From NCBI GenBank assembly GCA_017388175.1, contig JAFOTD010000032.1:1-60781 (forward strand): 60,781 bases of DNA, read 5' to 3'. Under the pieces are notes generated by a model, which worked only from the letters and a program-made list of their open reading frames with translations, had not been told where the DNA came from and ran no database searches. This document shows positions 5,084 to 19,290 of the stretch, piece after piece. A program made the position numbers and the translations under genes. This stretch comes from Clostridia bacterium. GTDB lineage: Bacteria > Bacillota > Clostridia > Christensenellales > CAG-138. The first letter of the stretch is position 1, and each line of letters begins with the position of its first letter.

Positions 5084-5133
5084 TTACGATGTATTTATAT
5101 GTGAAAGTATACCGTCACGGGGAAAGGAGCCGC

Positions 5134-6096
5134 ATGGAGACCGGATTTCATCACGTACCGATCATGGTGCCGGAAGTGCTGGCGCTTTTGGAGCCCGCGC
5201 GCGGGGGTGTCTTCGTGGACGGCACGCTCGGCGGAGGGGGACACGCGGAGGCGGTGCTCTCCGCCATGCCCGAGAGCGGGAGACTCTTCGGCATAGACCG
5301 CGACGACGAGGCGCTGAAGGCCGCGAGCGCAAGATTATCCCGCTTCGGCGACCGGTTTACGGCGATCAAGGGGAACTTTTTCGATATGCGATCGCTGCTG
5401 TATGCGCGCGGGATCGAAAAGGTCGACGGGATTCTACTCGATCTCGGCGTCTCTTCATATCAGCTTGACGCAAGGGAACGCGGCTTTTCCTACAAGGCGG
5501 AAGCGCCTCTGGATATGCGCATGGATCAAAGCGCGCCGCTCTCGGCGAAGATCGTGGTCAACGAGTGGCCCGAAGAGGAATTGCGCCGCATCTTTTACGA
5601 GTACGGGGAAGAGAAGTTTTCGGCAAAGATCGCGCGGCGCATCGTCGAACGGCGAAAGGAAGCGCCGATCGAAACGACGACCGAGCTTGCGGAGCTGATC
5701 AAAAGCGCGATCCCCGCGAAATTCCGCAACGAACCGCAGCATCCGGCGCGGCGCTGCTTTCAGGCGATCCGCATCGCCGTGAACGGCGAGCTGGACGGGC
5801 TCAATGACGCGATCGTGTCAGCGCACGACCTTCTGAAGCCAGGCGGACGGCTTGCGATCCTGACGTTCCATTCTTTGGAGGACCGCATCGTGAAAAACGC
5901 GTTCCGCACGTTTGAAAACCCCTGCACCTGCCCGAAGTCGGCGCCGGTGTGTATCTGCGGGAAGAAACCGACCGCAAAGGTGCTGACGCGCCATCCTCTG
6001 GTTGCGTCGGAGGAAGAACAGGCAATGAATTCGCGCGCGACGAGCGCAAAGCTTCGCGCGATCGTGCGCATGGATCCCGTTTCGGGGTCATATTGA
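5134..6096 (+). CDS. rsmH: 16S rRNA (cytosine(1402)-N(4))-methyltransferase
   Basis: A 320-residue protein (MraW). It N4-methylates C1402 of 16S rRNA using S-adenosylmethionine. The SAM site VDGTLGGGGHAEAVL is near the N-terminus, followed by LLDLGVSSYQLD and the signature FHSLEDRIVKN; the C-terminal cysteines CTCPKSAPVCICGKK are typical. The start at 5134 has GGAAAGGAG 6 bases upstream; the longer frame from 5089 would begin at the predicted transcription start. First gene of the dcw cluster, 19 bp before ftsL. Confidence 0.95.
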   Translation: METGFHHVPIMVPEVLALLEPARGGVFVDGTLGGGGHAEAVLSAMPESGRLFGIDRDDEALKAASARLSRFGDRFTAIKGNFFDMRSLLYARGIEKVDGILLDLGVSSYQLDARERGFSYKAEAPLDMRMDQSAPLSAKIVVNEWPEEELRRIFYEYGEEKFSAKIARRIVERRKEAPIETTTELAELIKSAIPAKFRNEPQHPARRCFQAIRIAVNGELDGLNDAIVSAHDLLKPGGRLAILTFHSLEDRIVKNAFRTFENPCTCPKSAPVCICGKKPTAKVLTRHPLVASEEEQAMNSRATSAKLRAIVRMDPVSGSY

Positions 6097-6115
6097 TGTA
6101 GAAAGGAGAAGCGGC

Positions 6116-6637
6116 ATGGACGTTCAGTTCGATGAAGACAGCCGGAAAGCCGGCAGCGCAAAAACACGCATCTATTCGCCGAACAAAACGGGCAATCCCA
6201 CGCCCGTTCTGGAAGACGCGTCGATGCCGATTCGTCCGCAGCCGACCAAAACGGTTAAGGCAAAGCGCAGCGCGCGCACCGAGGTGCGGTTGACGCCGAT
6301 GTCCAAAGTCCTGATCCTGCTGTCCGTGTTCGTGATCGCCGCAACCGCGCTGTTCGCGCTGTCCGGCGCGGCGGATTACGCGCGCATCATCAGCGAAACC
6401 GCTTCCGTGAACAGTGAAATCGAATCGTATAACGATCAGATTTCGCAGCTTCGGAAAACGCAGGGCACAATGAACGACTTTGCTACGATCTACGACGTCT
6501 GCATGCGGCTCGGCATGACGATGACCGGGTCACAGAGCAGCGGTTCCGCGATCGTGCCGGCTTCGCCCGAGACGAGCACGGAACCGGCGGAGACGCCGCC
6601 GCCCGAAACCTCCGAACCGAATGGAGAAGAACCATGA
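6116..6637 (+). CDS. ftsL: FtsL-like division protein
   Basis: A 173-residue single-pass membrane protein: basic N-terminal cytoplasmic part (1-61), one membrane helix around 63-85 (VLILLSVFVIAATALFAL), then a short heptad-like coiled coil (SVNSEIESYNDQISQL) and a Pro/Thr/Glu-rich tail. Family identity rests on topology, size and position between rsmH and the division PBP, not on sequence motifs, which FtsL lacks. FtsL forms a complex with DivIB and DivIC and activates FtsW-PBP. The C-terminal tail is longer and more acidic than usual. The stop overlaps the next start (ATGA). RBS GAAAGGAGAA. Confidence 0.75.
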   Translation: MDVQFDEDSRKAGSAKTRIYSPNKTGNPTPVLEDASMPIRPQPTKTVKAKRSARTEVRLTPMSKVLILLSVFVIAATALFALSGAADYARIISETASVNSEIESYNDQISQLRKTQGTMNDFATIYDVCMRLGMTMTGSQSSGSAIVPASPETSTEPAETPPPETSEPNGEEP

Positions 6638-8883
6638 AAATACCGAACCTGCGCATTCGCGGACGATCCGCAAGACGCTCCGGCACAGCCGTTCGCAGCG
6701 GGTCGAATCGGGTAAGGATTGCGCCGCAAAAGAGAAAATTGCTGTTCGCGATGCTGATCGCGGGCGTCGGGTTCTTGCTGATCATCGGCAAGCTGTTTGA
6801 CGTGTCGATTATCAAGGGCAAGACGTGGACGCAGAAGGCGATGAGTCAGTGGACGCGCGTGACGTCCCTAAAAGCCGAGCGCGGACAGATCCTGGATCGC
6901 AACGGCACGGTGCTTGCCTCGTCGTATACGACGTATCAGGTCTGTCTGAACCCGCAGAACATTCAGGAGAGCGACCGCGAGCGTATCGCGTACATCCTTT
7001 CGACGTACCTCGAAATGGACTACGACACGGTCTATGCGAAGATTACGAAGACGCGCAAGAAGTACCCGAACGATCCGGACAACCACGAGCGCACACTGTA
7101 TTCGCAGATCAAGCTCAAGGATCAGGTCGATAAGGAAGTTATCAGTAAGCTCAACTCCATGCAGCTCGGCAGCGGCGTGAGCTACTATTCCGACGTCAAG
7201 CGCGACTATCCGGAATCCGGGTACTACGCGCAGCTCATCGGGTTCACGAACATTGACGGCGACGGGCAGACCGGCGTGGAACTGACGTACAACAAATACC
7301 TTGCCGGAGAGAACGGCTACCAGAAAACGGACACGGACCGCGATAACAACCCGGTTCCGGGCGGCGAAGAGGAATACGTGGAATCAGTCCCTGGCGCAGA
7401 CGTGATCCTGACGGTGGATACGGGGTATCAGGGCATTCTCGAGAATGCGCTTGAGGAAGCGTGCGTGATCAACAACGCGAAGAGCGTGCAGGGCGTGCTG
7501 ATGGACCCGCGGACGGGCGAGATCCTTGCGATCGGCACGTACCCGACGTTCGACAGCTCGAACCCGCCGAGAAGCGACGCGAAGACGCTGCTGGAGCTTT
7601 CGAAAAACCGGATCGTAACGGACACGTACGAGCCGGGCTCGACGTTCAAGGTCGTTACGCTTGCGAGCGCGCTTGAATCCGGCGCGGTCGATATGTCGAC
7701 GCGGTTTTACTGCAGCGGGTCGCTGCTCGTCAAGGGCGAGCGGATCAAATGCTGGAAATCCGGCGGGCATAAGGATGAATCGCTTGCCGAGGCGGTGCAG
7801 AACAGCTGCAATCCGGCGTTTATGGGAATGGCGCTCAGGATGGGCGTGGATACCTTCTACGATTACATTTTCAAGTTCGGCTTCGACGAGCCGACGGGTT
7901 CCGGCGTGATGGGCGAGACGAGCGGAACCGTTACGCATAAGAAATACATCCGAGACGCGGATCTCGCGCGCATCGGGTTCGGTCAGAGCATCAGCTGCAC
8001 GGGCATGCAGCTTATGATGGCGGTCGACGCGTGCATCAACGGCGGCGAGCTTTTAAAGCCGTATATCGTTTCGGAGATCGTCGACAAGCAGGGCAACGTG
8101 CTTGAAAAAAACGAGCGCACCGTCGTGCGCCGCGTGATCTCGCCGACGACGTCGGCAATCATACGCAGCCTTCTGCGCGGGGTCGTGGAAAACGGCAGCG
8201 GCAAAAACGCGCAGGTTCCCGGCTATTCGGTCGGCGGCAAGACGGGCACGTCGCAGAAGTACGATGAAAACGGCAACGTATCGAGTTCCAAGCTCGTTGC
8301 GTCGTTTATCGGGTTTGCGCCGGTCGACGATCCGCAGTTTATCTGCCTGATTATCGTCGACGAACCGCAGGTGCCGCAGGTGTACGGCAGCACGGTTGCC
8401 GCGCCGTTCGTGCAGCAGGTGCTGGCCGCCGCGCTGTCCTACGCGGGTGTTGCGCCGGACATCGAAAGCACGGCTGTGGCGGTGCCGGACGTGCACGGCT
8501 TGACCGTCAGTCAGGCGAAGCAGGTGCTTGAACACGCGGGGCTGGAGCCGATCTATCTGGACGCCGAGCTCGATTCGACGGTCTCGAATCAGGCGCCCGC
8601 CGCGAACACGCGGGTGGTGCGCGGCAGCACGGTGATGCTGTATTCGACCGGGTATTCCTTCTTCTCGGAGCTGAACGAGGACGTGAGTACGGTAAAGGTG
8701 CCGAACGTGATCGGACTGGATCGCATCGACGCGCTGGACGCGCTGAAGAAGGCCGGGCTGATCATGGATTACGACCGGCAGAACTGCGCGGGCGAGGCGG
8801 TCTATCAGGACATCACGGAGGAATACGAGGTGCCGGTGGGCACGGTCGTGCACGTGACGTTCGAAGTCAAAAACAGTGATTGA
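6634..8883 (+). CDS. spoVD: division/sporulation PBP with PASTA domains (SpoVD/FtsI type)
   Basis: A 749-residue class B penicillin-binding protein, the transpeptidase that cross-links septal or spore-cortex peptidoglycan with its partner SEDS protein FtsW. Basic N-terminus, a membrane anchor around 36-56, dimerisation domain, then the transpeptidase motifs STFK (nucleophile Ser336), SCN (391-393) and KTGT (536-539). Two C-terminal PASTA domains begin at VPDVHGL and VPNVIGL. The start overlaps the ftsL stop as ATGA. Two PASTA domains suit either SpoVD or a vegetative FtsI; with only one PBP gene in this cluster it may serve vegetative division. Confidence 0.9.
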   Translation: MKIPNLRIRGRSARRSGTAVRSGSNRVRIAPQKRKLLFAMLIAGVGFLLIIGKLFDVSIIKGKTWTQKAMSQWTRVTSLKAERGQILDRNGTVLASSYTTYQVCLNPQNIQESDRERIAYILSTYLEMDYDTVYAKITKTRKKYPNDPDNHERTLYSQIKLKDQVDKEVISKLNSMQLGSGVSYYSDVKRDYPESGYYAQLIGFTNIDGDGQTGVELTYNKYLAGENGYQKTDTDRDNNPVPGGEEEYVESVPGADVILTVDTGYQGILENALEEACVINNAKSVQGVLMDPRTGEILAIGTYPTFDSSNPPRSDAKTLLELSKNRIVTDTYEPGSTFKVVTLASALESGAVDMSTRFYCSGSLLVKGERIKCWKSGGHKDESLAEAVQNSCNPAFMGMALRMGVDTFYDYIFKFGFDEPTGSGVMGETSGTVTHKKYIRDADLARIGFGQSISCTGMQLMMAVDACINGGELLKPYIVSEIVDKQGNVLEKNERTVVRRVISPTTSAIIRSLLRGVVENGSGKNAQVPGYSVGGKTGTSQKYDENGNVSSSKLVASFIGFAPVDDPQFICLIIVDEPQVPQVYGSTVAAPFVQQVLAAALSYAGVAPDIESTAVAVPDVHGLTVSQAKQVLEHAGLEPIYLDAELDSTVSNQAPAANTRVVRGSTVMLYSTGYSFFSELNEDVSTVKVPNVIGLDRIDALDALKKAGLIMDYDRQNCAGEAVYQDITEEYEVPVGTVVHVTFEVKNSD

Positions 8884-8902
8884 ATCAGCGGGGGAGATGA
8901 AA

Positions 8903-10339
8903 ATGTTATTATCGATGATCGCGTCGGACATCGGCGCAACTGTGACGGGCGGCGATGCCGAGATCACCTCGGTTGAATATGATTCGAGAAAGGTGAAGGA
9001 AGGCAGCCTGTTCTGCTGTATGCAGGGGCTTGTGTCCGACGGGCACAACTTCGCCGCGCAGGCGGTGGAAAAGGGCGCAAAGGCGCTGCTGGTCGAACGG
9101 CTTTTGCCGCTTGACGTGCCGCAGATCGTCGTGCAGGACGGACGCGTCGCGATGGCGCATGCCGCCGCCGCGTTTTTCGGGCATCCGGAGCGCGAAATGA
9201 TCATGCTCGGCGTGACCGGCACCAACGGCAAGACGAGCACGACCTATATGGTCAAGTCGATCGCCGAAGCAGCGGGGATGAAGGTTGGACTGATCGGCAC
9301 GATCCGCAATATGATCGGCGATATCATACTGGAAACCGGCCGCACCACGCCGGAATCGGCGGATCTGTTTGCGATTCTGCGGCGCATGGCGGACGAGAAG
9401 GTCGATCTCGTGATTATGGAGGTTTCGAGCCACGCGCTTGCGCAGGACCGCGTCGCGGGGATTCCGTTCCGCGTCGGCCTGTTTACGAACCTCACGCAGG
9501 ATCATCTCGACTATCACAAGACCTTCGATCAGTACCTTGAGGCGAAAAAGCTGCTCTTTAAACAGAGCGATCTTGCGATCGTCAATATCGACGACGCGTA
9601 CGCGGAGCGCATGATGGACGGGCTTACCCTGCCGATCAAAACGATGGGCATTCAGCATCGCGCGGACTACACCGCGATCAACATCGACATCCGCACCGAC
9701 GGCGTCCGCTTCCATCTGAGAACGCCGAACGGCGAGGGCCCGGTGCGCATGCATATCTCCGGCCTTTTCTCGGTGTACAACGCGATGGGCGCGGCGGCGA
9801 TGACGCAGGCAGTCGGCATTTCGTTTGCGAATATCTTGAAGGGTCTTGAATCGCTCTCGGGCGTTTCGGGCCGGCTCCAGTCGGTCGATACGAACGGGCG
9901 GCCGTTCTCGGTGTACGTGGATTACGCGCACACGCCGGACGCGCTCGAAAACGTGCTGACGTCCGTACGCGCGTTTGCAAAGGCGCGCGTGGTGTCCCTG
10001 TTCGGCTGCGGCGGGGACCGCGACCGCACCAAGCGCCCGATCATGGGCGAGATCGGCGGGCGGCATTCGGATTTCGTCGTCGTCACGAGCGACAATCCGC
10101 GCACCGAAAACCCGGAGGAGATCGTCCGCGCCGTGGAGCTCGGCGTGCAGAAGAGCGGAACGCCGTACGTTTCGATCATCAACCGCAGGGACGCGATCGA
10201 ATACGCGCTGTCGATTCTGGAGCCCGACGACATCCTCGTGATCGCGGGCAAGGGGCACGAAAACTATCAGGAGATCAACGGCGTCAAGCATCATTTTGAC
10301 GACCGCGAGATCGTGGAAGAAATACTGAGGGGTTCATAA
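8903..10339 (+). CDS. murE: UDP-MurNAc-L-Ala-D-Glu : meso-diaminopimelate ligase
   Basis: A 478-residue Mur ligase. It adds the third residue of the peptidoglycan stem peptide in the cytoplasm using ATP. The nucleotide loop GTNGKTS lies near residue 107 and the C-terminal motif DNPR begins at D397; DNPR marks enzymes that use meso-diaminopimelate, so the wall is probably DAP-type. The start at 8903 is chosen because GGGGGAG ends 7 bases upstream; ATG 8897 is too close to it and GTG 8876 overlaps spoVD. The usual partner murF does not follow; mraY does. Confidence 0.95.
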   Translation: MLLSMIASDIGATVTGGDAEITSVEYDSRKVKEGSLFCCMQGLVSDGHNFAAQAVEKGAKALLVERLLPLDVPQIVVQDGRVAMAHAAAAFFGHPEREMIMLGVTGTNGKTSTTYMVKSIAEAAGMKVGLIGTIRNMIGDIILETGRTTPESADLFAILRRMADEKVDLVIMEVSSHALAQDRVAGIPFRVGLFTNLTQDHLDYHKTFDQYLEAKKLLFKQSDLAIVNIDDAYAERMMDGLTLPIKTMGIQHRADYTAINIDIRTDGVRFHLRTPNGEGPVRMHISGLFSVYNAMGAAAMTQAVGISFANILKGLESLSGVSGRLQSVDTNGRPFSVYVDYAHTPDALENVLTSVRAFAKARVVSLFGCGGDRDRTKRPIMGEIGGRHSDFVVVTSDNPRTENPEEIVRAVELGVQKSGTPYVSIINRRDAIEYALSILEPDDILVIAGKGHENYQEINGVKHHFDDREIVEEILRGS

Positions 10340-10351
10340 GGGGTAAAAGAC

Positions 10352-11383
10352 ATGGATACCGTTGTTGTCAATTCGCTGCTTGCGCTGATCGTCGCGTTCG
10401 GCGTCGCCGCACTTTTGGGGCCGATCGTGATCCCGATTCTGCACCGGCTGAAGTTCGGGCAGAACGTGCGCGACGACGGACCGAAAACGCATTTGAAGAA
10501 GCAGAACACACCCACGATGGGCGGCGTGATGATCCTCGCCGCAATCGTGATCGCAACGCTGATCTTCTCGAACCGGAGTTATTCGCTGACGCTGTGGGCG
10601 CTGCTTTTTACGGTGCTGTTCGGGCTCGTAGGTTTTTTGGACGACTTTATCAAGATCGTCAAAAAGCGTTCGCTGGGATTGCGGGCATGGCAGAAAATCG
10701 CCGCGCAGTTCGTGCTGTCGCTGGGCTTTGCGATCGCACTGTACTTCCACCCGATGGTCGGCAGCACGATCTGGCTTCTGAAGCTCGATCTCGGGATCTT
10801 CTTCATTCCGTTTGCAATGTTCGTGATCATCGGCACGGTCAACTCCGTGAACCTGATCGACGGACTGGACGGGCTATCGAGCTCGGTCACCTCGGTCTAC
10901 TCGCTTGCGATGGGCGTTCTGGTCATCCTGTACGTGCTTTCGTATCCGACCGCTTCGCTTGAGGGCGAATCGGCCGTTGCGGCCGCGGGGCTGCTCGACG
11001 GACTTTCCGGCATCGCGGTGTTCGCGTTTGCCGTTGCGGGCGGGTGCCTCGGCTTTCTCGTTTACAACAGCTATCCCGCAAAGGTCTTTATGGGCGACCT
11101 CGGCGCGTTCACGCTCGGCGGCGCGGTCGCGGCGATGGCGCTTCTGACCCGCACGACGCTGCTGCTGCCGCTGATGGGGATCATGTACGTCGCCTCGTCG
11201 GTATCGGTCATTCTGCAGGTCGGCAGTTACAAGCTCCGGCACAAGCGCATCTTCCGCATGGCGCCGCTGCATCACCACTTTGAGCTCGGCGGCGCGCCTG
11301 AAACGCGCATCGTATCCATGTACAGCATCGTAACCGCGATCGCAAGCGCATGCGCGCTTCTGATCTTCTGGTTCTGTAAATAA
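10352..11383 (+). CDS. mraY: phospho-MurNAc-pentapeptide-transferase
   Basis: A 343-residue polytopic membrane enzyme that transfers phospho-MurNAc-pentapeptide to undecaprenyl phosphate, making lipid I. Visible family motifs: the first Asp pair GFLDDFIK, the NLIDGLDGLSS loop, and the C-terminal MAPLHHHFELGG. About ten hydrophobic segments are present. It starts 12 bp after murE behind AGGGG and is followed after 11 bp by murD. Confidence 0.95.
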   Translation: MDTVVVNSLLALIVAFGVAALLGPIVIPILHRLKFGQNVRDDGPKTHLKKQNTPTMGGVMILAAIVIATLIFSNRSYSLTLWALLFTVLFGLVGFLDDFIKIVKKRSLGLRAWQKIAAQFVLSLGFAIALYFHPMVGSTIWLLKLDLGIFFIPFAMFVIIGTVNSVNLIDGLDGLSSSVTSVYSLAMGVLVILYVLSYPTASLEGESAVAAAGLLDGLSGIAVFAFAVAGGCLGFLVYNSYPAKVFMGDLGAFTLGGAVAAMALLTRTTLLLPLMGIMYVASSVSVILQVGSYKLRHKRIFRMAPLHHHFELGGAPETRIVSMYSIVTAIASACALLIFWFCK

Positions 11384-11394
11384 GGAGGACAGGT

Positions 11395-12744
11395 ATGGCA
11401 AAGCAAAAAACGGCGCTGATCGTCGGCATGGCAAAGAGCGGTATCGCCGCGGCGCGTCTTCTGTATCAGGACAATTACCGCATCATCGTCAACGATATGA
11501 AGCCCGAGATCAAGGGACTGTTTGAACAGCTTTCAGGCATCGCGTACGAGGTCAAGCTCGGCGCAAACCCGATGGATCTTCTGGACGGCGTGGATCTTCT
11601 GATTCCGAGCCCGATCATTCCGATGACGCGCAACTTCATCGTCGAGGCAAAGCGCCGCGGGATCGAGGTCATCTCCGAAATCGAGCTGGGCTATCGCTAT
11701 TCGAAGGCGGACTTCGTCTGCGTGACCGGAACGAACGGAAAAACCACCTGCACCGCATTAACCGGCGAGCTATTTAAGGCCGCGGGCAGAAAAACCTTCG
11801 TGCTCGGCAACATCGGCGTCGCGATCTCGGCGCATGCGCTCGAAACAAAACCCGGCGACGTCGTCGTGGCGGAAACGGCCGCGCTGCAGCTCGAGGGCAA
11901 CGTGCGATTCCATGCGAAGGCCGCGGGAGTGTGCAACATCACGCCGGATCATCTCGATCACTTCGGCACGATGGAAAACTACATTGCGGCGAAGGCGAAG
12001 ATTTTGGACAATCAGACCGCGGACGATTACGCCGTGCTGAACTGGGACGATGAAACGGTGCGCAATTTTGCGAAGCTGACCCCGGCGCACGTGCTGTACT
12101 TCTCCCGCAAGGAAGAGGTGGAGGAGGGCATGTTCCTTCGAAACGGCATGCTCGTGTACCGTATGAACGGCGCGGAACACGAACTGATGTCGGCCGACGA
12201 AATCCGCATTCCGGGCAATCACAACCTTGAAAACGCGATGCTCTGCGCGCTTTTGGGGCTGTCGCAGGGGATTGCGCCGGAAACGATCCGCGAGGTCTTC
12301 AAGACGTTTGCGGGCGTCGAGCACCGCATCGAGTACGTCTGCACGAAGGGCGGCGTCGATTATATCAACGATTCGAAGGGCACGAACCCGGCGAGCACGA
12401 TCCGCGCAATCGAGGCAATGAAGAAGCCTACGGTTCTGCTGCTCGGCGGCTACGACAAGCATATCGGGTTTGACGAGCTTTTCGAGGCGTTCACGCCGAT
12501 CGTCAAGGCGTGCGTCGTGCTCGGCGACACGAAGAATCAGATCCTCGAATGCGCGAAGGCGCATGGGTATGAAGGCATCATGCATACGGCGGACACGTTC
12601 CGTTCCGCGGTGGATCTGGCGCGCGACCTTGCCGAGCGCGGCGACTGCGTGCTTTTAAGCCCCGCATGCGCAAGCTGGGACATGTTCGATAATTACGAGA
12701 CGCGCGGAAGAGTGTTTAAAGAGATCGCGCGCGCATACGAATAA
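11395..12744 (+). CDS. murD: UDP-MurNAc-L-alanine : D-glutamate ligase
   Basis: A 449-residue Mur ligase that adds D-Glu to UDP-MurNAc-L-Ala. Motifs: N-terminal Rossmann-like VGMAKSGIAAARLL, ATP loop CVTGTNGKTTCTALTGE, NITPDHLDHFG, and the C-terminal NDSKGTNPAST and LLLGGYDKH. RBS AAGGAGGAC, spacing normal. In the usual dcw order between mraY and ftsW. Confidence 0.95.
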   Translation: MAKQKTALIVGMAKSGIAAARLLYQDNYRIIVNDMKPEIKGLFEQLSGIAYEVKLGANPMDLLDGVDLLIPSPIIPMTRNFIVEAKRRGIEVISEIELGYRYSKADFVCVTGTNGKTTCTALTGELFKAAGRKTFVLGNIGVAISAHALETKPGDVVVAETAALQLEGNVRFHAKAAGVCNITPDHLDHFGTMENYIAAKAKILDNQTADDYAVLNWDDETVRNFAKLTPAHVLYFSRKEEVEEGMFLRNGMLVYRMNGAEHELMSADEIRIPGNHNLENAMLCALLGLSQGIAPETIREVFKTFAGVEHRIEYVCTKGGVDYINDSKGTNPASTIRAIEAMKKPTVLLLGGYDKHIGFDELFEAFTPIVKACVVLGDTKNQILECAKAHGYEGIMHTADTFRSAVDLARDLAERGDCVLLSPACASWDMFDNYETRGRVFKEIARAYE

Positions 12745-12756
12745 ACCGGAGGATTC

Positions 12757-13917
12757 ATGGAGTCGAGAGCGGCGAAAAAACAATCGGTATTCAAGCGGCT
12801 GAGGGAAGCACGGCTGACCCGCGGCAAGATGGACTTTTCCATCCTGCTCGTGATTTCCGTTCTGTGCGCGTTCGGCCTCGTGATGATTTTCTCCGCGAGC
12901 TATTACTACGCGCAGCATTATTCCGGCGCAAACAACGACAGCTTCTACTACCTCAAGCGTCAGCTCGTGTACCTTCTGATCGGGTATCCTCTGATGCTTC
13001 TGATCTCGCTGATCAACTACCGCATGGTCGAGCGGCTGCGCTCGGTGTTCATGGCGATCTCCCTGATCCTTCTCGTGGCGGTTTTGCTGTGGGGGCAGGA
13101 CTTGAACGGCGGGAAGCGCTGGCTGAACATTGCCGGCATTTCGATTCAGCCGTCCGAGCTTGCGAAGTTCGGTCTGATGATCTTCATGTGCTCGTATATG
13201 GCGCGCCATAAAAACGAAATGAATACGTTCCGCTTCGGCATGCTGCCGATGCTGATCGCGATCGGGTTTATCGCAGGCCTCGTCATGCTGCAGCCGAACA
13301 TGTCCATGGCGGTTATCATCGGCTTTATCGGGATCGTTCTGCTGTATCTCGGCGGCTGTAACTTAAAACAGCTTTTCGCGCTCGGCATCCTTGCAATCAT
13401 CGCGTTCTTCATACTGGCGCAGGCGGCGGATTACCGCATGGACCGTCTGACCTCGTTCAGTAATCCCGAAAGCGATCCGCAGGGCACCGGATATCAGCTT
13501 TTGCAGTCGTATTACGCGATCGGCTCGGGCGGGTTCTTCGGAAAGGGTTTAAACAACAGCTATCAGAAGCTGCTGTACATGACCTACGGCGAATCGGACT
13601 TCATCTTCGCGATCCTGTGCGAGGAGTTCGGATTCATCGGCGGGTTTTTCGTGATCCTGATGTACGGATGGATCGTGTTCCGCGGCATCGTGATCGCAAT
13701 GCGCTGCCGCAACCGGTTCGGAAGCCTGCTTGCCGCGGGTATTTCGATCGTTTTCGGATTCCAGGTATTCGTCAACATCGGCGTCGTCACGGGACTTCTG
13801 CCCACGACCGGGCAGGCGCTTCCGTTCATATCGGCGGGGGGCACGTCGCTGCTCGTGTTCCTTGCCGCAATGGGGCTTCTTCTCAGTATTTCGCGCGATA
13901 CGAACCCGCGCGGGTAA
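12757..13917 (+). CDS. ftsW: SEDS peptidoglycan glycosyltransferase FtsW/SpoVE
   Basis: A 386-residue SEDS-family polymerase with about ten membrane helices. Typical sequences are ISIQPSELAKFGLMIF after the second loop, GKGLNNSYQKLLYMTYGESDFIFAILCEEFGF (shown here in two halves of the large external loop region), and the C-terminal GLLPTTGQALPFISAGGTS. It polymerises lipid II together with the class B PBP encoded three genes upstream. In textbook clusters murG follows; here a murA gene does. Confidence 0.93.
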   Translation: MESRAAKKQSVFKRLREARLTRGKMDFSILLVISVLCAFGLVMIFSASYYYAQHYSGANNDSFYYLKRQLVYLLIGYPLMLLISLINYRMVERLRSVFMAISLILLVAVLLWGQDLNGGKRWLNIAGISIQPSELAKFGLMIFMCSYMARHKNEMNTFRFGMLPMLIAIGFIAGLVMLQPNMSMAVIIGFIGIVLLYLGGCNLKQLFALGILAIIAFFILAQAADYRMDRLTSFSNPESDPQGTGYQLLQSYYAIGSGGFFGKGLNNSYQKLLYMTYGESDFIFAILCEEFGFIGGFFVILMYGWIVFRGIVIAMRCRNRFGSLLAAGISIVFGFQVFVNIGVVTGLLPTTGQALPFISAGGTSLLVFLAAMGLLLSISRDTNPRG

Positions 13918-13976
13918 CGCACATTCCGCCGCAGTGCCGCATAAGATGTGGTATCATGCGGAAGGAACTGCGGAAA

Positions 13977-15260
13977 ATGTCAAACTGGCTTGTGCGCGGC
14001 GGGGCCGTCCTTTCGGGAACGGTTTCCGTGCAGGGATCCAAGAATGCGGCGCTGCCGATTCTTGCGGCGACTCTTCTCATCGAGGAACCGGTACGGCTTT
14101 TGAACTGCCCCATGATTCTCGACGTCGAGAACATGCTGCGCATCCTCGAATCGCTCGGCGTGACGGTTTTGCGCGAATCGGATGCGCTGATTGTGGACAG
14201 CAGCACGGCTTCGCGCTTCGTGCTGCCGACGGCGCTTTCGGGCGAGCTGCGCTCGTCGATCTTTCTGCTCGGCTCCGTGCTGTCGCGCTTTCACGCGGCG
14301 GACGCGCCGTATCCCGGCGGCTGTGAGATCGGAAACCGTCCGATCGACCTGCATCTCGAGGGGCTGCGGCGGCTGAACGCCGACATCGAGGAGCACGGCG
14401 GGCACATTCGCTGCAAAGGCGACAGGCTCGTCGGCGCGGTCGTGGACCTTGGCTATCCGAGCGTCGGCGCGACGGAAAACATCATGCTCGCCGCGGCAAA
14501 AGCGGAGGGGCAAACGACGATCCGGAACGCCGCGTGTGAACCGGAGATCGTCGATCTCCAGCGATTTTTATGCGCCTGCGGGTTCAGAGTCGCGGGAGCG
14601 GGCACGCCGACGGTCGTGATCGACGGCGTGAAGAAGGGTCACGGCACGAGTTTTCGCATCATGCCGGACCGCATCGTGACCGGCACGTACCTGATCGGCG
14701 CCGCGATCACCGGCGGAGACGTAACGGTTGCCGACACGCAGCCGGAGACCGTCGACACGCTTTTGTATCAGCTTGCAGCGTGCGGCTGCACCGTCACACA
14801 GCACGCGGACGCGGTGCGTTTGCGCGCATCAAGGCGGCTTACGGGCGTCGGGCTGATCGAAACGCGGCCGTATCCCGGGTTTCCGACCGATCTGCAGCCG
14901 CAGCTTTTCAGTCTGCTGTCGCTTGCCGGGGGCACGTCGGTGCTCGTGGAGAACGTGTTTGAAAACCGCTTCAAGCATGCGCAGGAGCTCCGAAAAATGG
15001 GCGCGAAAAACCGTATCCTCGACCGAACGGCGGTAATCACGGGCGTGGAACGGCTGCACGGCGCCGTGGTAACGGCGCACGATCTGCGCGGCGGGGCGGC
15101 GCTGGCGCTTGCGGGACTCGCGGCCAATGGCGAAACGCAGATTTTGCACGCGGAGCGCATCGAACGCGGCTATGAACGAATGGAGAGCGTGATCGAAGCT
15201 TTAGGCGGCTCGATCACACGAAAGGAAGATAGGATTGGCGAAGAAGAAAAAACGCAGTGA
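13977..15260 (+). CDS. murA: UDP-N-acetylglucosamine 1-carboxyvinyltransferase (first paralogue)
   Basis: A 427-residue EPSP-synthase-fold enzyme that starts peptidoglycan precursor synthesis by moving enolpyruvate from PEP to UDP-GlcNAc. The N-terminal GSKNAALPILAATLL and the loop GGCEIGNRPID with catalytic Cys116 are clear, so fosfomycin-type inactivation would be expected. GYPSVGATENIMLAA and RPYPGFPTDLQPQ follow. The start at 13977 has AAGGAA upstream; the frame extends backwards into ftsW without a plausible start except ATG 13956. It overlaps divIB by 26 bp. A second murA lies at 44713-45993. Confidence 0.92.
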   Translation: MSNWLVRGGAVLSGTVSVQGSKNAALPILAATLLIEEPVRLLNCPMILDVENMLRILESLGVTVLRESDALIVDSSTASRFVLPTALSGELRSSIFLLGSVLSRFHAADAPYPGGCEIGNRPIDLHLEGLRRLNADIEEHGGHIRCKGDRLVGAVVDLGYPSVGATENIMLAAAKAEGQTTIRNAACEPEIVDLQRFLCACGFRVAGAGTPTVVIDGVKKGHGTSFRIMPDRIVTGTYLIGAAITGGDVTVADTQPETVDTLLYQLAACGCTVTQHADAVRLRASRRLTGVGLIETRPYPGFPTDLQPQLFSLLSLAGGTSVLVENVFENRFKHAQELRKMGAKNRILDRTAVITGVERLHGAVVTAHDLRGGAALALAGLAANGETQILHAERIERGYERMESVIEALGGSITRKEDRIGEEEKTQ

Positions 15261-16671
15261 ACGGGCGAGCTTCCTCTTTGACGGGGACGCGGGCACGGAT
15301 CCGAATGCGATCAACCTGTTCGGACCGGACGACGAACCTGCGTCCGATCCCGAACCGGCATACGACGAAGAGACGGCGGCATTCGAAGAACCCGCCGTGC
15401 CCGACGCCGCGCCTTCCGAAGCGGACGAGCCCATAGAAACGGGCGAAGCGGACGAGCCCATAGAGACGGGTGAAGCGGACAGGCGTTCCGACGCGCCGCT
15501 GTTTCGTTTCGACCGGTACGGGCGGCGCATCGACAAGCGCGCCGCGCGCTACGGCAAACGCAAAAACGCGCCGAAGGCGACCACGACCGTCGTGCAGCAC
15601 GAAACCGAAGCGAAGCGCGAGTACGACGAGGCGCGCGCACGGGCGGAAGCGCGTGCGAAAAAACGCGCTCGCGAGGAGGCGAAGGCCGCCGCGATCCGCA
15701 AATCGGAGCGTAAAAAACGGCGGCAGCGCAGTCTGTCGACGTTCGTGCTCGGCGCGCTGGCGCTCGTCGTGCTTGCGGTGCTGACGTGGTTTGTGACGCG
15801 CGTTTCCAAGGTCCGTGTAGTCAACGTGCCGGAGGGATATACCGAGGAGCAGATCGTGGAACTGACCGGGCTTTCCGGAAAAATCGGCAAGCGCAGCGCA
15901 CTGTTTATCAGCACGAAGGACGTTGAGCAGCATATCCGGGATAAGGACCCGTATCTGGACGCGACCGTGCGGTACGTTTTTCCCTCCACGATCAACGTTA
16001 CCGTGAGCAAGCGCACCGAAGCGGCGTGCGTCCGCTGGGGCCCGCAGAACGAGTATCTCGCAATCATCGACGAGAACGGCACGGTGCTGAATGAAAAGGC
16101 CGAAAGCACGAACGGGCTGCTGATCGCCGACGGTATGAACGTTTCCAGCGCAAGCAACGGCACGCGGCTCGGCGACGCAAGCGACATTCAGGTCTCCGCG
16201 CTGATCCGGATTCTGACGAAGCTCAAGGATTACGGACTTCTGGAGCGCAGCCCGCGCATCAGCAGAATCGACATGACAGAGCTCATGCAGATCCGCATGT
16301 ATCTCGAGGGCATGCCGTATACGATCGAAGTCGGCGATACGACCAACCTTGATACGAAGCTTGCAAAGCTGCAGCGGCACTGGTCGGAGATCATGGACGA
16401 GGCGTCCTCGTTCATCCGCAGCGGCAAAACGACCGTAACGATCTATCTGTACAGCAAGATCGGCATCAACGTTTCCCCATACGAATCGGGGTATGTTGTG
16501 CCGACGCCTCCGCCCCCGGAGGTGCCTTCGGCATCGCCTTCTCCGGACGGCGGGGAAGGCACGACTCCGGACGACAATCCGCCGGATGACAACCCGCCGG
16601 ACGACGAGCCGGACGAGCCGCAGCCGCAGGTCACCCCGATGCCGCATCAGGACGACCCGTTTACAGGCTGA
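15235..16671 (+). CDS. divIB: cell division protein DivIB/FtsQ
   Basis: A 478-residue bitopic membrane protein. Residues 1-167 are cytoplasmic, acidic first (with a direct repeat DEPIETGEA) then strongly basic; the membrane helix is about 168-188; a POTRA domain spans about 191-260 and the beta domain about 263-420; a Pro/Asp/Glu-rich tail ends the protein. DivIB stabilises the FtsL-DivIC complex at the septum. It starts at TTG 15235, 6 bases after AAAGGAAG and within the murA end. The beta domain (ACVRWGPQNEYLAII, RIDMTELMQIRMYLEG, HWSEIMDEASSF) has a close relative in the lipoprotein at 17037-19160. The cytoplasmic part is unusually long. Confidence 0.88.
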   Translation: MAKKKKRSERASFLFDGDAGTDPNAINLFGPDDEPASDPEPAYDEETAAFEEPAVPDAAPSEADEPIETGEADEPIETGEADRRSDAPLFRFDRYGRRIDKRAARYGKRKNAPKATTTVVQHETEAKREYDEARARAEARAKKRAREEAKAAAIRKSERKKRRQRSLSTFVLGALALVVLAVLTWFVTRVSKVRVVNVPEGYTEEQIVELTGLSGKIGKRSALFISTKDVEQHIRDKDPYLDATVRYVFPSTINVTVSKRTEAACVRWGPQNEYLAIIDENGTVLNEKAESTNGLLIADGMNVSSASNGTRLGDASDIQVSALIRILTKLKDYGLLERSPRISRIDMTELMQIRMYLEGMPYTIEVGDTTNLDTKLAKLQRHWSEIMDEASSFIRSGKTTVTIYLYSKIGINVSPYESGYVVPTPPPPEVPSASPSPDGGEGTTPDDNPPDDNPPDDEPDEPQPQVTPMPHQDDPFTG

Positions 16672-16678
16672 CGCCTTT

Positions 16679-16806
16679 CGATCGGTCGAAAACAGTGTTT
16701 TCGACCGATCGGCTTTTTCAATGCCGCCTAAAACGCAAAGCGTTTCCGGGCGGCGGATCTGCAAGGTGTCAAATGCACCGCACATGTCGCTGCATTTGAC
16801 GGATTT
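16679..16806 (+). repeat. three-hairpin composite element, copy 1 (first hairpin acts as terminator)
   Basis: Behind divIB: hairpin 1 has perfect 15 bp arms (16679-16693 / 16697-16711) followed by GCTTTTTC and is a rho-independent terminator. Hairpin 2 (about 16724-16755) is two-tiered, CCGCC/GGCGG outside and AAACGC/GCGTTT inside. Hairpin 3 (16768-16800) has arms GTCAAATGCA / TGCATTTGAC around the loop CCGCACATGTCGC, followed by GGATTT. Copy 2 at 26800-26929 has the same order and length in the opposite orientation. In hairpin 3 a G-C pair of this copy is a T-A pair in copy 2. Confidence 0.7.
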
Positions 16807-16897
16807 GTGTGATGTTACCTCTTCGGTCCGGGTTGCCGAACGGCGACGCCGTTCTTTGTGCCAAAGGGAAAGACTGTGCGCTGTTGACCCGAAAGAC

Positions 16898-16968
16898 TGT
16901 CATCCTGAGGAACGAAGTGACGAAGGATCTTCAAGATCATTCTCTTTTTTATAATCTTCCGGATGACA
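16898..16968. repeat. short MITE-like repeat with TGTCATCC/GGATGACA ends
   Basis: TGTCATCC (16898-16905) and GGATGACA (16961-16968) form inverted ends of a 71 bp unit that contains GAACGAAGTGACGAAGGATC. Related sequences occur at about 20531-20560 and 60690-60781. Such TGTCATCCTGA units are common interspersed repeats in bacterial genomes; no coding capacity. Confidence 0.6.
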
Positions 16969-16986
16969 CAACAAGTTTCTGTATCA

Positions 16987-17016
16987 AAAAGGATCCTCTG
17001 CGCGGAGGATCCTTTT
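16987..17016. terminator. bidirectional terminator behind the lipoprotein gene
   Basis: AAAAGGATCCTC (16987-16998) pairs with GAGGATCCTTTT (17005-17016). The A/T flanks make it usable on both strands; it is 20 bp past the minus-strand lipoprotein stop. Together with the two repeats above it fills the 365 bp between divIB and that gene. Confidence 0.8.
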
Positions 17017-17036
17017 GCTGCGCAAATGTGAGGCGC

Positions 17037-19160
17037 TTACGGCTTCTTGGCAAACCAGCCGAGGAATTCACAGCAGCCGGTGTCTTCATAGGTGCCGACA
17101 AAGTTGCAGTAGACGTAGTACTTAGCGCCGATATTGTCAGCCGGCGCCCATTTCTCGCTGAGATTGTGTACATACACGGTTTCGCCGGTCTTGTTGTTGG
17201 TTGCCTTGACGATGATATCACCGTCTTTATCAATGACTTCCACAACGACGATGATGATGCGGAAACCGTATGTATTGGATGCATACTGAGTCTGGTTCGC
17301 GAGCAGATCGTCAATTGACAGCTTCTTCGGAGCGATTTCCATATAAGTCTTGGTTTTGTTGTAATACTTCAGGAACGCGTCCTTGTCCTTGAACCCTTTG
17401 ATAATGCGGAAGCGGCGCTGCGCGGGTTCCATGTTTTCCTTCTCAGCCCGCAGTGTGATCACGGATGCGCCGTAATACTCGGCTCCCATTGTGATCTGGA
17501 AGGAGAAGTTGCCGGATCCGTCCACGGATACCTTGCCGCAACTGACATTTTGCGGATCGTCGCTCGTCGCGGTCAGCTCTGCGCCGGGCGTCGTCTTGCC
17601 GGTCACGGTCAGCTTGCCGGAGGCGTCTGCGCGGAGCGCGGAACCCTCGGAATGAACCTCAAGCTTCATCGGTTCGGGGATGAACTTATATGCGTGGATC
17701 GTGATCTCTTCTTCGTCGGTCACATAATTATCCTTTGTTGCGACGATCTTCAGCGTTTCAACATCCTCTTCACCGGCGTCAGCGGGGAACTTGAAATCGT
17801 AGACGAACATGCCGCCTGCGTCGATCGGAACGGGATTGCCGTTGACCGAGACGTCCGCTGTCGGCTCGTCAATGGTACCGGAGATCTTGATCTCGTTGGA
17901 TTCCGGCGCCATAATGATATTGTCGTCGTCGGGAACAGGGGCAGTCAGCGTAATATTCAGCTTCGGGAACGTACGAGTAAACGAAGGACAATTAACTTTA
18001 TATGAGCTCCCGTCCGGAGAGGTAATTGTAATCTCCGGGAAGAACTCGACGGTCGACTCCTCCAACGGTTCATTCTTGTAGAAGATCTGAACGGGAATCT
18101 TCACCTTGCGCTGCTTATCCTTGTCGTCTTCGTTTTCATACTGATAATCTTCCTGATTGGGGAAGTGGATCGTCAGCTTGGATTTTGCGGGAACGACAAC
18201 CGTGATGGAAACGAGATCCTCATTGTTTTCGCCCTTTTCGTCCTGAATGATTGCGGTACGGGTATCGGTAGATTCCCCGCTCGGATCGGGAGATGCGACA
18301 GGCTCATCGGGCTGTACGGAATCCGGATAGACCGGGGTGATAAAAATGCCGCCGTTGCTCAGCACGCTGATCGTAACGGACGTTGCGCTGTGCAGGATCA
18401 TCGTATCTGCCGTCTCCATGAGCTCCGTCCAGTTATTCCGCAGGCGGAGCATGCCGTTGCCGTACAGCGCCTTGGCGTCGGCAAACCGGATCGTTACGGA
18501 TTCGTCCGCAAAGTACATCCCGACATGTTCCGGATCCCCGAGGTCGATCCGGACGATCTGCGGCGTAAGCTCCGTTATCCCGTTCTCAAAAAGCGTTTCA
18601 AGCAGACGGAACAGGACGTCGGATTGCGAACGATCCTTCAAAACGATCCGCTGTCCGCGGACGGCGGAAGAGACCTCCGCTCCTTCGATGACCGGGAGAC
18701 GGTCCGGGCGCGCTGCGTCGTCGTTCAGCACGACGCCGTCCGGCCCGAGGATCGCAAACCGATCGCCGCTTGCGCCGAAGCGGATGCACGCCGTTTTCTG
18801 CCACGTCAGCACGGGTACGTCCTCCTTCGGATCCGGGATCAGATCTTCCAAAAGCCATCCTTCGTTATAGAAGACGTAGGTCAGCTTATAGTATGCTTCA
18901 ATGCCGAAGCGGTCGCTCTCGCCGAAGACCTTCACAAAGACGTAGTCCGTCTTGTCCTCCGGGTTGGTCTGCCGCCGCGTCACCTCGCAAGAGACGATCT
19001 CCGCGTCATAGCGCTGCCATTCCGTGCTTTCGGCAACGTCCCGCTTGATCGCCGCCTGACCGACAACCTGCTCGCTTTTGCTCTTTTTTTCGGAACAGCC
19101 GGCGAATGCGCCGAGGCAGAACAGAACGGCCATCAGAACACAGATCACTTTTCGGAACAT
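17037..19160 (-). CDS. lipoprotein with a DivIB/FtsQ-like beta domain and Ig-like domains
   Basis: A 707-residue exported lipoprotein: signal peptide with lipobox AFAGC (Cys22). Residues about 44-110 form a small alpha/beta-looking domain. Residues 121-282 align with the DivIB beta domain 262-420 of the neighbouring gene: ACIRFGASGDRFAIL against ACVRWGPQNEYLAII, RIDLGDPEHVGMYF against RIDMTELMQIRMYL, NNWTELMETAD against RHWSEIMDEAS, and then a similar Pro/Ser-rich linker. There is no POTRA domain and no membrane helix. Residues about 330-560 look like two or three Ig-like beta-sandwich domains, followed by a C-terminal domain ending in a Cys pair. No function is known to me; a division- or wall-related role is inferred from the paralogy and position. 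RBS GGGGAGAAG. Confidence 0.75.
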   Translation of the reverse strand: MFRKVICVLMAVLFCLGAFAGCSEKKSKSEQVVGQAAIKRDVAESTEWQRYDAEIVSCEVTRRQTNPEDKTDYVFVKVFGESDRFGIEAYYKLTYVFYNEGWLLEDLIPDPKEDVPVLTWQKTACIRFGASGDRFAILGPDGVVLNDDAARPDRLPVIEGAEVSSAVRGQRIVLKDRSQSDVLFRLLETLFENGITELTPQIVRIDLGDPEHVGMYFADESVTIRFADAKALYGNGMLRLRNNWTELMETADTMILHSATSVTISVLSNGGIFITPVYPDSVQPDEPVASPDPSGESTDTRTAIIQDEKGENNEDLVSITVVVPAKSKLTIHFPNQEDYQYENEDDKDKQRKVKIPVQIFYKNEPLEESTVEFFPEITITSPDGSSYKVNCPSFTRTFPKLNITLTAPVPDDDNIIMAPESNEIKISGTIDEPTADVSVNGNPVPIDAGGMFVYDFKFPADAGEEDVETLKIVATKDNYVTDEEEITIHAYKFIPEPMKLEVHSEGSALRADASGKLTVTGKTTPGAELTATSDDPQNVSCGKVSVDGSGNFSFQITMGAEYYGASVITLRAEKENMEPAQRRFRIIKGFKDKDAFLKYYNKTKTYMEIAPKKLSIDDLLANQTQYASNTYGFRIIIVVVEVIDKDGDIIVKATNNKTGETVYVHNLSEKWAPADNIGAKYYVYCNFVGTYEDTGCCEFLGWFAKKP

Positions 19161-19189
19161 AGCTTCTTCTCCCCATTTATTATCATATT

Positions 19190-19218
19190 ATTATATCATA
19201 TCGGTGCAGGGATGTCCA
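19190..19218 (-). promoter_or_regulatory. promoter of the DivIB-like lipoprotein gene
   Basis: On the minus strand TGGACA (19218-19213), a 17 bp spacer and TATAAT (19195-19190), about 30 bases before the start codon. The region is AT-rich. It lies just past the rpsF operon terminator, so the lipoprotein is transcribed on its own. Confidence 0.7.
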
Positions 19219-19234
19219 CAGCGGACAGGCGAAT

Positions 19235-19262
19235 AAAAAACGAGGCTCTTTCGAGCCCCGTG
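19235..19262 (-). terminator. terminator of the rpsF-ssb-rpsR operon
   Basis: On the minus strand GGGCTC-GAAA-GAGCCTCG followed by TTTTTTATTC, about 30 bp past the rpsR stop. Confidence 0.8.
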
Positions 19263-19290
19263 CTAAGCGGTCGTGTTGTGACTTTGTAAA

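Follow-up and report, generated by a model that had tools for sequence, protein, structure and literature searches.

The window, the whole 60,781-nucleotide stretch of Clostridia DNA that was analysed, comes from an assembled genome estimated to be 74.8% complete. It carries a division and cell wall cluster at 5089-16671 that ends at divIB, the genes of which we take to be, in order, mraW, an ftsL candidate, spoVD/ftsI, murE, mraY, murD, ftsW, murA, and divIB itself. The ftsL candidate, at 6116-6637, is named for its position and has no Pfam match. By eye, no murG, ftsA, or ftsZ was seen among the frames listed to 27 kb. DivIB runs from a charged cytoplasmic part through one membrane helix (the hydrophobic window at residue 170) and a POTRA domain to a beta domain and a Pro-rich tail, and it scores E 4.5e-6 with POTRA_1 and E 9.7e-5 with FtsQ_DivIB_C. 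Between divIB and rpsR, and tail to tail with divIB as the original prediction had placed it, lies the gene for a lipoprotein (Table 1).

Table 1. Features at the divIB-rpsR junction, with positions numbered from the first base of the window
Feature	Position	Strand	Basis or remark
divIB (FtsQ/DivIB)	15235..16671	+	478 aa; POTRA_1 and FtsQ_DivIB_C over Pfam cut-off
DivIB beta domain and Pro-rich tail, residues 257-441	16003..16557	+	Counterpart of lipoprotein match
Terminator-like hairpin after divIB	16678..16712	+	16 pairs
Putative inserted segment, breakpoints approximate	16860..19234		Flank matches to relatives' gaps
32-base repeat near insert edge	16899..16930	+	Two further copies in own genome
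Palindrome with A and T runs after lipoprotein stop, possible terminator	16987..17016		By eye
Mosaic lipoprotein, 707 aa, uninterrupted frame	17037..19160	-	Translation
Ig-type ectodomain and C-terminal domain, residues 311-707	17040..18230	-	57-65% identity to zinc-ribbon protein
Divergent copy of DivIB beta domain, residues 117-288	18297..18812	-	DivIB-only profile and hhalign
N-terminal lipoprotein domain, residues 23-106	18843..19094	-	Relative only in G024 lipoprotein
Signal peptide and lipobox, residues 1-22 (..FAGC)	19095..19160	-	Matches lipobox pattern
Promoter-like site of lipoprotein gene	19190..19218	-	11/12, spacer 17, TG before -10
Terminator-like hairpin after rpsR, upstream of lipoprotein promoter-like site	19240..19261	-	Terminator scan

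Judged by its sequence, the lipoprotein is a mosaic from three sources, since its front, middle, and ectodomain each match different proteins: a lipobox with a rare N-terminal domain, a copy of the DivIB beta domain, and an Ig-type ectodomain. Cys22, which we take to be the lipobox Cys of a lipoprotein signal peptide, fits the lipobox pattern, in keeping with the predicted lipid anchor. The Ig-like domains predicted along with it appear as matches to Pfam models of Ig type that both remain below cut-off, Glucodextran_B at residues 420-486 and Big_6 at residues 516-558. Past the signal peptide, hydrophobicity averaged over 19 residues peaks at 1.47, compared with 2.54 for the membrane helix of DivIB, so that no membrane helix is apparent, and no POTRA-like sequence precedes the beta copy (0.3% by hhalign against the DivIB alignment); both absences had been claimed from the start and are borne out. 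GC3 is 0.74, 0.75, and 0.69 in the three parts of the gene and 0.60-0.79 in its neighbours.

The front of the protein is rare. Residues 22-116 drew no Pfam match up to E 10, and the one relative found for the N-terminal domain is in a lipoprotein from another genus of the family (G024). A second genome, G044, matches residues 2-32 only, which is the signal peptide region. Used alone as a query, the domain matched 1 of 396 genomes of the order, its own, and G024 was absent among the rows listed for that search.

The middle of the protein is where the lipoprotein had been claimed to hold a second copy of the DivIB beta domain, and both the residue ranges and the motifs given for that copy were correct. 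When the lipoprotein is searched against its own genome, DivIB comes up at E 5.5e-23, with 34% identity over lipoprotein residues 117-299, and a profile of 31 DivIB beta domains, from which the lipoprotein was excluded, matches lipoprotein residues 117-288 (E 2.6e-30, 102 bits). With the same profile, the best of 2,000 shuffles of the lipoprotein stretch reached 10.3 bits, and the best of the window's other open stretches of at least 60 residues reached 3.4 bits. Profile-profile comparison, proposed with the prediction, gave the same answer: hhalign aligned the DivIB alignment with the lipoprotein stretch over 178 columns at a probability of 99.7 and E 3.5e-26. These comparisons establish homology between residues 117-288 and the DivIB beta domain. 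The general Pfam model performs weakly on the copy (FtsQ_DivIB_C, E 0.22; its 12.8 bits fall short of the cut-off, 21), so an annotation made with Pfam only would miss it, and profile searches of the PDB up to E 1 and E 10 did not find FtsQ/DivIB. Set beside FtsQ/DivIB (FtsQ_DivIB_C, PF03799), the lipoprotein is alike in the whole beta domain, the closing Pro, and the Pro/Ser-rich tail, but it has no cytoplasmic part, membrane helix, or POTRA and has lost most of the near-invariant residues in the second half of the beta domain.

What the copy has kept lies largely in its hydrophobic core. Of 48 alignment columns with a hydrophobic residue in at least 95% of DivIBs, 43 stay hydrophobic in the copy, and substituted columns are still hydrophobic at 20 of 25 core columns, compared with 10 of 49 polar columns (Fisher p 1e-6). 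About two thirds of the residues of the copy have been replaced. With these 43 columns persisting in an open frame of 707 codons and ordinary GC3, the core pattern has been kept while much else changed, which indirectly indicates selection for the fold. Near-invariant DivIB residues are kept at 10 of 20 positions in DivIB 262-352 and at 5 of 19 in DivIB 353-422, the part that contains the last strand, a contrast that is not significant (Fisher p 0.19) and that depends on a split at 352/353 chosen after the alignment had been seen. Y404-L405-Y406 reads S-V-L in the copy and E365-V366-G367 reads R-F-A, both of them near invariant in the 31 DivIBs; T402, G410, and P415 are retained, and the last strand keeps its V, T, I, S, G, I, and P positions. 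FtsB of E. coli extends the FtsQ sheet at its last strand, around Y248, a residue that may be replaced by F and not by W or K (PMC6134095), and in the pneumococcus DivIB uses its beta domain to bind the rod formed by FtsL/DivIC (PMC3152878, citing Masson et al.). The register of Y248 was set by eye, hhalign having given no useful match between E. coli FtsQ and the window's DivIB. For the copy, a backbone contact with FtsL/DivIC would be thinkable, and the same side-chain contact hardly so.

The last part of the protein has a different origin. Residues 311-707 align end to end with the ectodomain of a zinc-ribbon membrane protein from an unnamed family that occurs across the genus (57-65% identity to ten core members), and the core-genus relatives of this ectodomain are 60-90% identical among themselves. 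The zinc-ribbon protein starts with a zinc-ribbon-like Cys pattern and an acidic stretch, after which a membrane helix is seen by eye; in the lipoprotein their place is taken by the lipobox, the N-terminal domain, and the DivIB copy. This reading covers 11 same-genus and four other family genomes and leaves out several antisense or cut frames, among them L005, L006, L008, L015, L016, L018, L019, L023, and L024. The one zinc-ribbon protein scanned had no Pfam or NCBIfam model over cut-off, with Zn_Ribbon_1 at E 1.2e-4, below cut-off. The zinc-ribbon gene adjoins what we read as nifS and thiI in four neighbourhoods (e.g., L084 7721-9733). The original prediction had held that homologues scattered through genomes with no link to divIB would speak against it, and this is the situation of the ectodomain half, homologues of which are widespread: in the 16 genomes where searches found both genes, the zinc-ribbon gene and divIB are on separate contigs. 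The zinc-ribbon original was not found in the lipoprotein's own genome, where N-terminal matches fall in three other frames with internal stops. As two neighbours that the gene has in relatives were also not found there (best matches, 34% and 29%), the region is probably missing from the assembly.

The first Ig module of this ectodomain has been used elsewhere in the genus. Nine other frames in seven same-genus genomes, its own included, carry it (G015, G003, G021 with two, G011, G010 with two, G013, and G000), and eight of the nine have a lipobox-like Cys by eye, the ninth being without its start. The heads that precede the module are lipocalin-like or a plain Pro-rich stretch, and in G013 a lipocalin-like part follows the Ig module; Lipocalin_4 fell just below its Pfam cut-off in two of the three frames scanned. 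Such proteins (e.g., L167, L162, and L160) resemble the mosaic lipoprotein in having a lipid anchor and then the same first Ig module, but have another head or none and a shorter ectodomain that ends before the last domains. Loci L160-L167, from seven genomes, hold lipoprotein-like frames with one Ig module, and two of these frames are adjacent in G021:C9.

Genome searches found the second beta copy in one genome. With residues 22-310 as the query, 40 of 103 genomes of the family matched: the lipoprotein's own twice, 38 once in the beta stretch, and G024 in the N-terminal domain only. Thirty loci with a beta-stretch match were checked as DivIB frames. The other 63 genomes gave no match at all, so that their DivIBs were missed too. 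In a profile search of the order, 31 of 396 genomes matched and 365 did not; within the genus, 21 of 23 matched; in both sets only the lipoprotein's own genome matched twice. A more diverged copy elsewhere might be overlooked by such searches. Scanning of genome contigs with the whole lipoprotein yielded no relatives, and scanning with the DivIB alignment yielded 23 loci with one beta match each (L123 ends within the beta domain), which are MAG records with Clostridia, Clostridiales, Bacillota, or Christensenella in the title, in several cases from ruminants according to that title, and which probably overlap with the family and order genomes searched. Among viral contigs, plasmids, and phages, residues 22-310 had no relative.

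The two halves of the protein differ greatly in divergence, that of the beta copy (32-36% identity to core DivIBs) far exceeding that of the ectodomain (57-65%). In the ectodomain tree the window's copy lies inside the core genus clade (support, 100/99) on an end branch of 0.38, compared with a median of 0.26, a placement that suggests recent assembly of the mosaic. In the beta tree the copy sits on a branch of 6.65, and neither a position outside all genus DivIBs (p-AU 0.31) nor one beside its own DivIB (0.51) is rejected; placing the copy outside the inner 16 genus DivIBs gives p 0.097. Identity of the copy to ten DivIBs outside the genus is 25-31%, and the 11 other core DivIB beta domains are 71-76% identical to that of the window's DivIB. 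The beta copy may either have evolved fast after loss of an old constraint or be older than the fusion.

The gap between divIB and rpsR spans 2,619 bases in the window. In 6 of 16 neighbourhoods from relatives, the two genes converge over a gap of 0.1-0.6 kb (129, 271, 300, 303, and 581 bases, and about 300 in G004, where a computed value of 9 stems from an rpsR frame split by tblastn), and no lipoprotein match was found in these six gaps. Among the other 10 relatives, the distance is 7.0-8.4 kb in four, and rpsR was not found in the stretch in six. Together with the single match in each of 38 other family genomes, the six gaps indicate that the pairing with divIB, which the original prediction had wanted surveyed in related genomes, is not conserved in the neighbourhoods and genomes covered. 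To the left, bases 16677-16859 match the gap of G013, G007, and G006 at 71-75%, and not that of G009, G015, or G004; to the right, bases 19235-19283 match the gap of all six relatives at 84-92% (in G015, to 19275). We infer that a segment of about 2.4 kb, carrying the lipoprotein gene, was inserted between divIB and rpsR, and clean loss from the relatives appears less likely. An inverted local duplication of the end of divIB was also considered, and the DNA level shows short repeats only; because of this, such a duplication, if real, would be too old to see. An assembly artefact is unlikely, given that no DivIB seen comes close to the beta part and that the gaps of relatives match on both flanks.

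The insert may come with signals of its own. One copy of what looks like a small dispersed repeat of 32 bases lies at its edge, and the copies elsewhere are exact in contig C96 and have one mismatch in C56. Regional scans found three promoter-like sites, compared with 1.3 in shuffles, and six terminator-like sites, compared with 3.9, so any single site of either kind is suggestive only. The palindrome after the lipoprotein stop is absent from the terminator-scan list. The divIB-rpsR gap of G003 measures 8.4 kb and contains Tn7-like genes on the rpsR side (L066, G003:C30, 10746-15597); TniQ, TniB, and a Mu-type transposase score over cut-off in this module and TnsD scores below, and the module may use rpsR or divIB for attachment.

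We give about an even chance to the reading that the gene encodes an envelope lipoprotein specific to this lineage, built by module shuffling and with a DivIB beta fold put to new use, which would neither stand in for DivIB nor strictly compete with it. According to this reading, the gene was gained as the 2.4-kb segment in the convergent gap after divIB and would be one product of module shuffling. The protein would be lipid anchored at the outer side of the membrane, its ectodomain would retain an ancestral surface job, and the beta domain would act as a protein-binding adaptor through an exposed edge strand, its partner having changed or the old contact having been partly kept. Counted against this reading are the protein's occurrence in a single genome (74.8% complete), the lack of significance in the contrast between the two halves of the beta copy, and the position beside divIB, for which no reason is left if the protein is unrelated to division. 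The weight of the finding is limited because the gene is a singleton in an incomplete MAG.

The main reason to prefer a shuffled envelope lipoprotein over a regulator of division is that the genus shuffles heads before the Ig module. It is unlikely, in our estimation, that the lipid-tethered beta domain still caps FtsL/DivIC in competition with DivIB, or that it recruits the Ig ectodomain to the septum. True homology to the DivIB beta domain, a hydrophobic core that has been kept, and a gene that adjoins divIB all fit such a role, as do the positions retained in the last strand, where FtsB of E. coli binds by extending the sheet (PMC6134095); contacts of this kind are made in part by the backbone. 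However, the two near-invariant triplets are wholly replaced, E. coli FtsQ accepts F at Y248 and not W or K (PMC6134095, with the register set by eye), every other genome that matched is without a second copy, and the sole match to the DivIC model in the assembled genome is below cut-off, in a 789-aa frame. The original prediction that the copy could compete with or replace DivIB is not supported as stated: simple competition or replacement is weakened by the loss of all but 5 of the 19 near-invariant residues from the half that contains the last strand, at a non-significant contrast between the halves (p 0.19). Competition with DivIB stays a possible outcome that we do not favour.

Two further accounts question whether the protein has a settled role or arose here at all. 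A recent chance fusion, transient and due to be lost, would explain the occurrence in one genome and the beta branch of 6.65, and the Tn7-like genes in the 8.4-kb gap of G003 indicate that this gap takes up foreign DNA. We consider this account improbable, given an open frame of 707 codons, sites that resemble promoters and terminators, GC3 in line with that of the neighbours, and a core hydrophobic pattern that was kept while two thirds of the residues were replaced. We think it very unlikely that the N-terminal domain and beta part were imported ready-made from an old lipoprotein of an unsampled lineage, the Ig ectodomain being added here. The very different divergence of beta part and ectodomain and an N-terminal relative found only in another genus are what one would expect of an import, but the copy is closest to the core-genus DivIBs and has ordinary GC3, and the beta tree cannot place it.

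We think it rather doubtful that the soluble, tethered beta domain still engages the FtsL/DivIC rod by strand addition, thereby placing an Ig-type surface ectodomain at the division site or restraining DivIB. If it did, this would be the first divisome hub domain reused on a lipoprotein. To our knowledge, DivIB/FtsQ beta domains occur only within the division protein itself. The original prediction knew of no described system of this kind, and a DivIB beta domain on a lipoprotein was likewise not described in the titles and abstract openings of the open-licence PMC papers among the matches listed. A copy that has kept its core pattern and lost most of the near-invariant residues would be a natural experiment for telling the DivIB residues that serve the fold from those that serve the divisome. 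The case also shows the way in which surface lipoproteins are built in one Clostridia genus, with varied heads set before a single Ig module.
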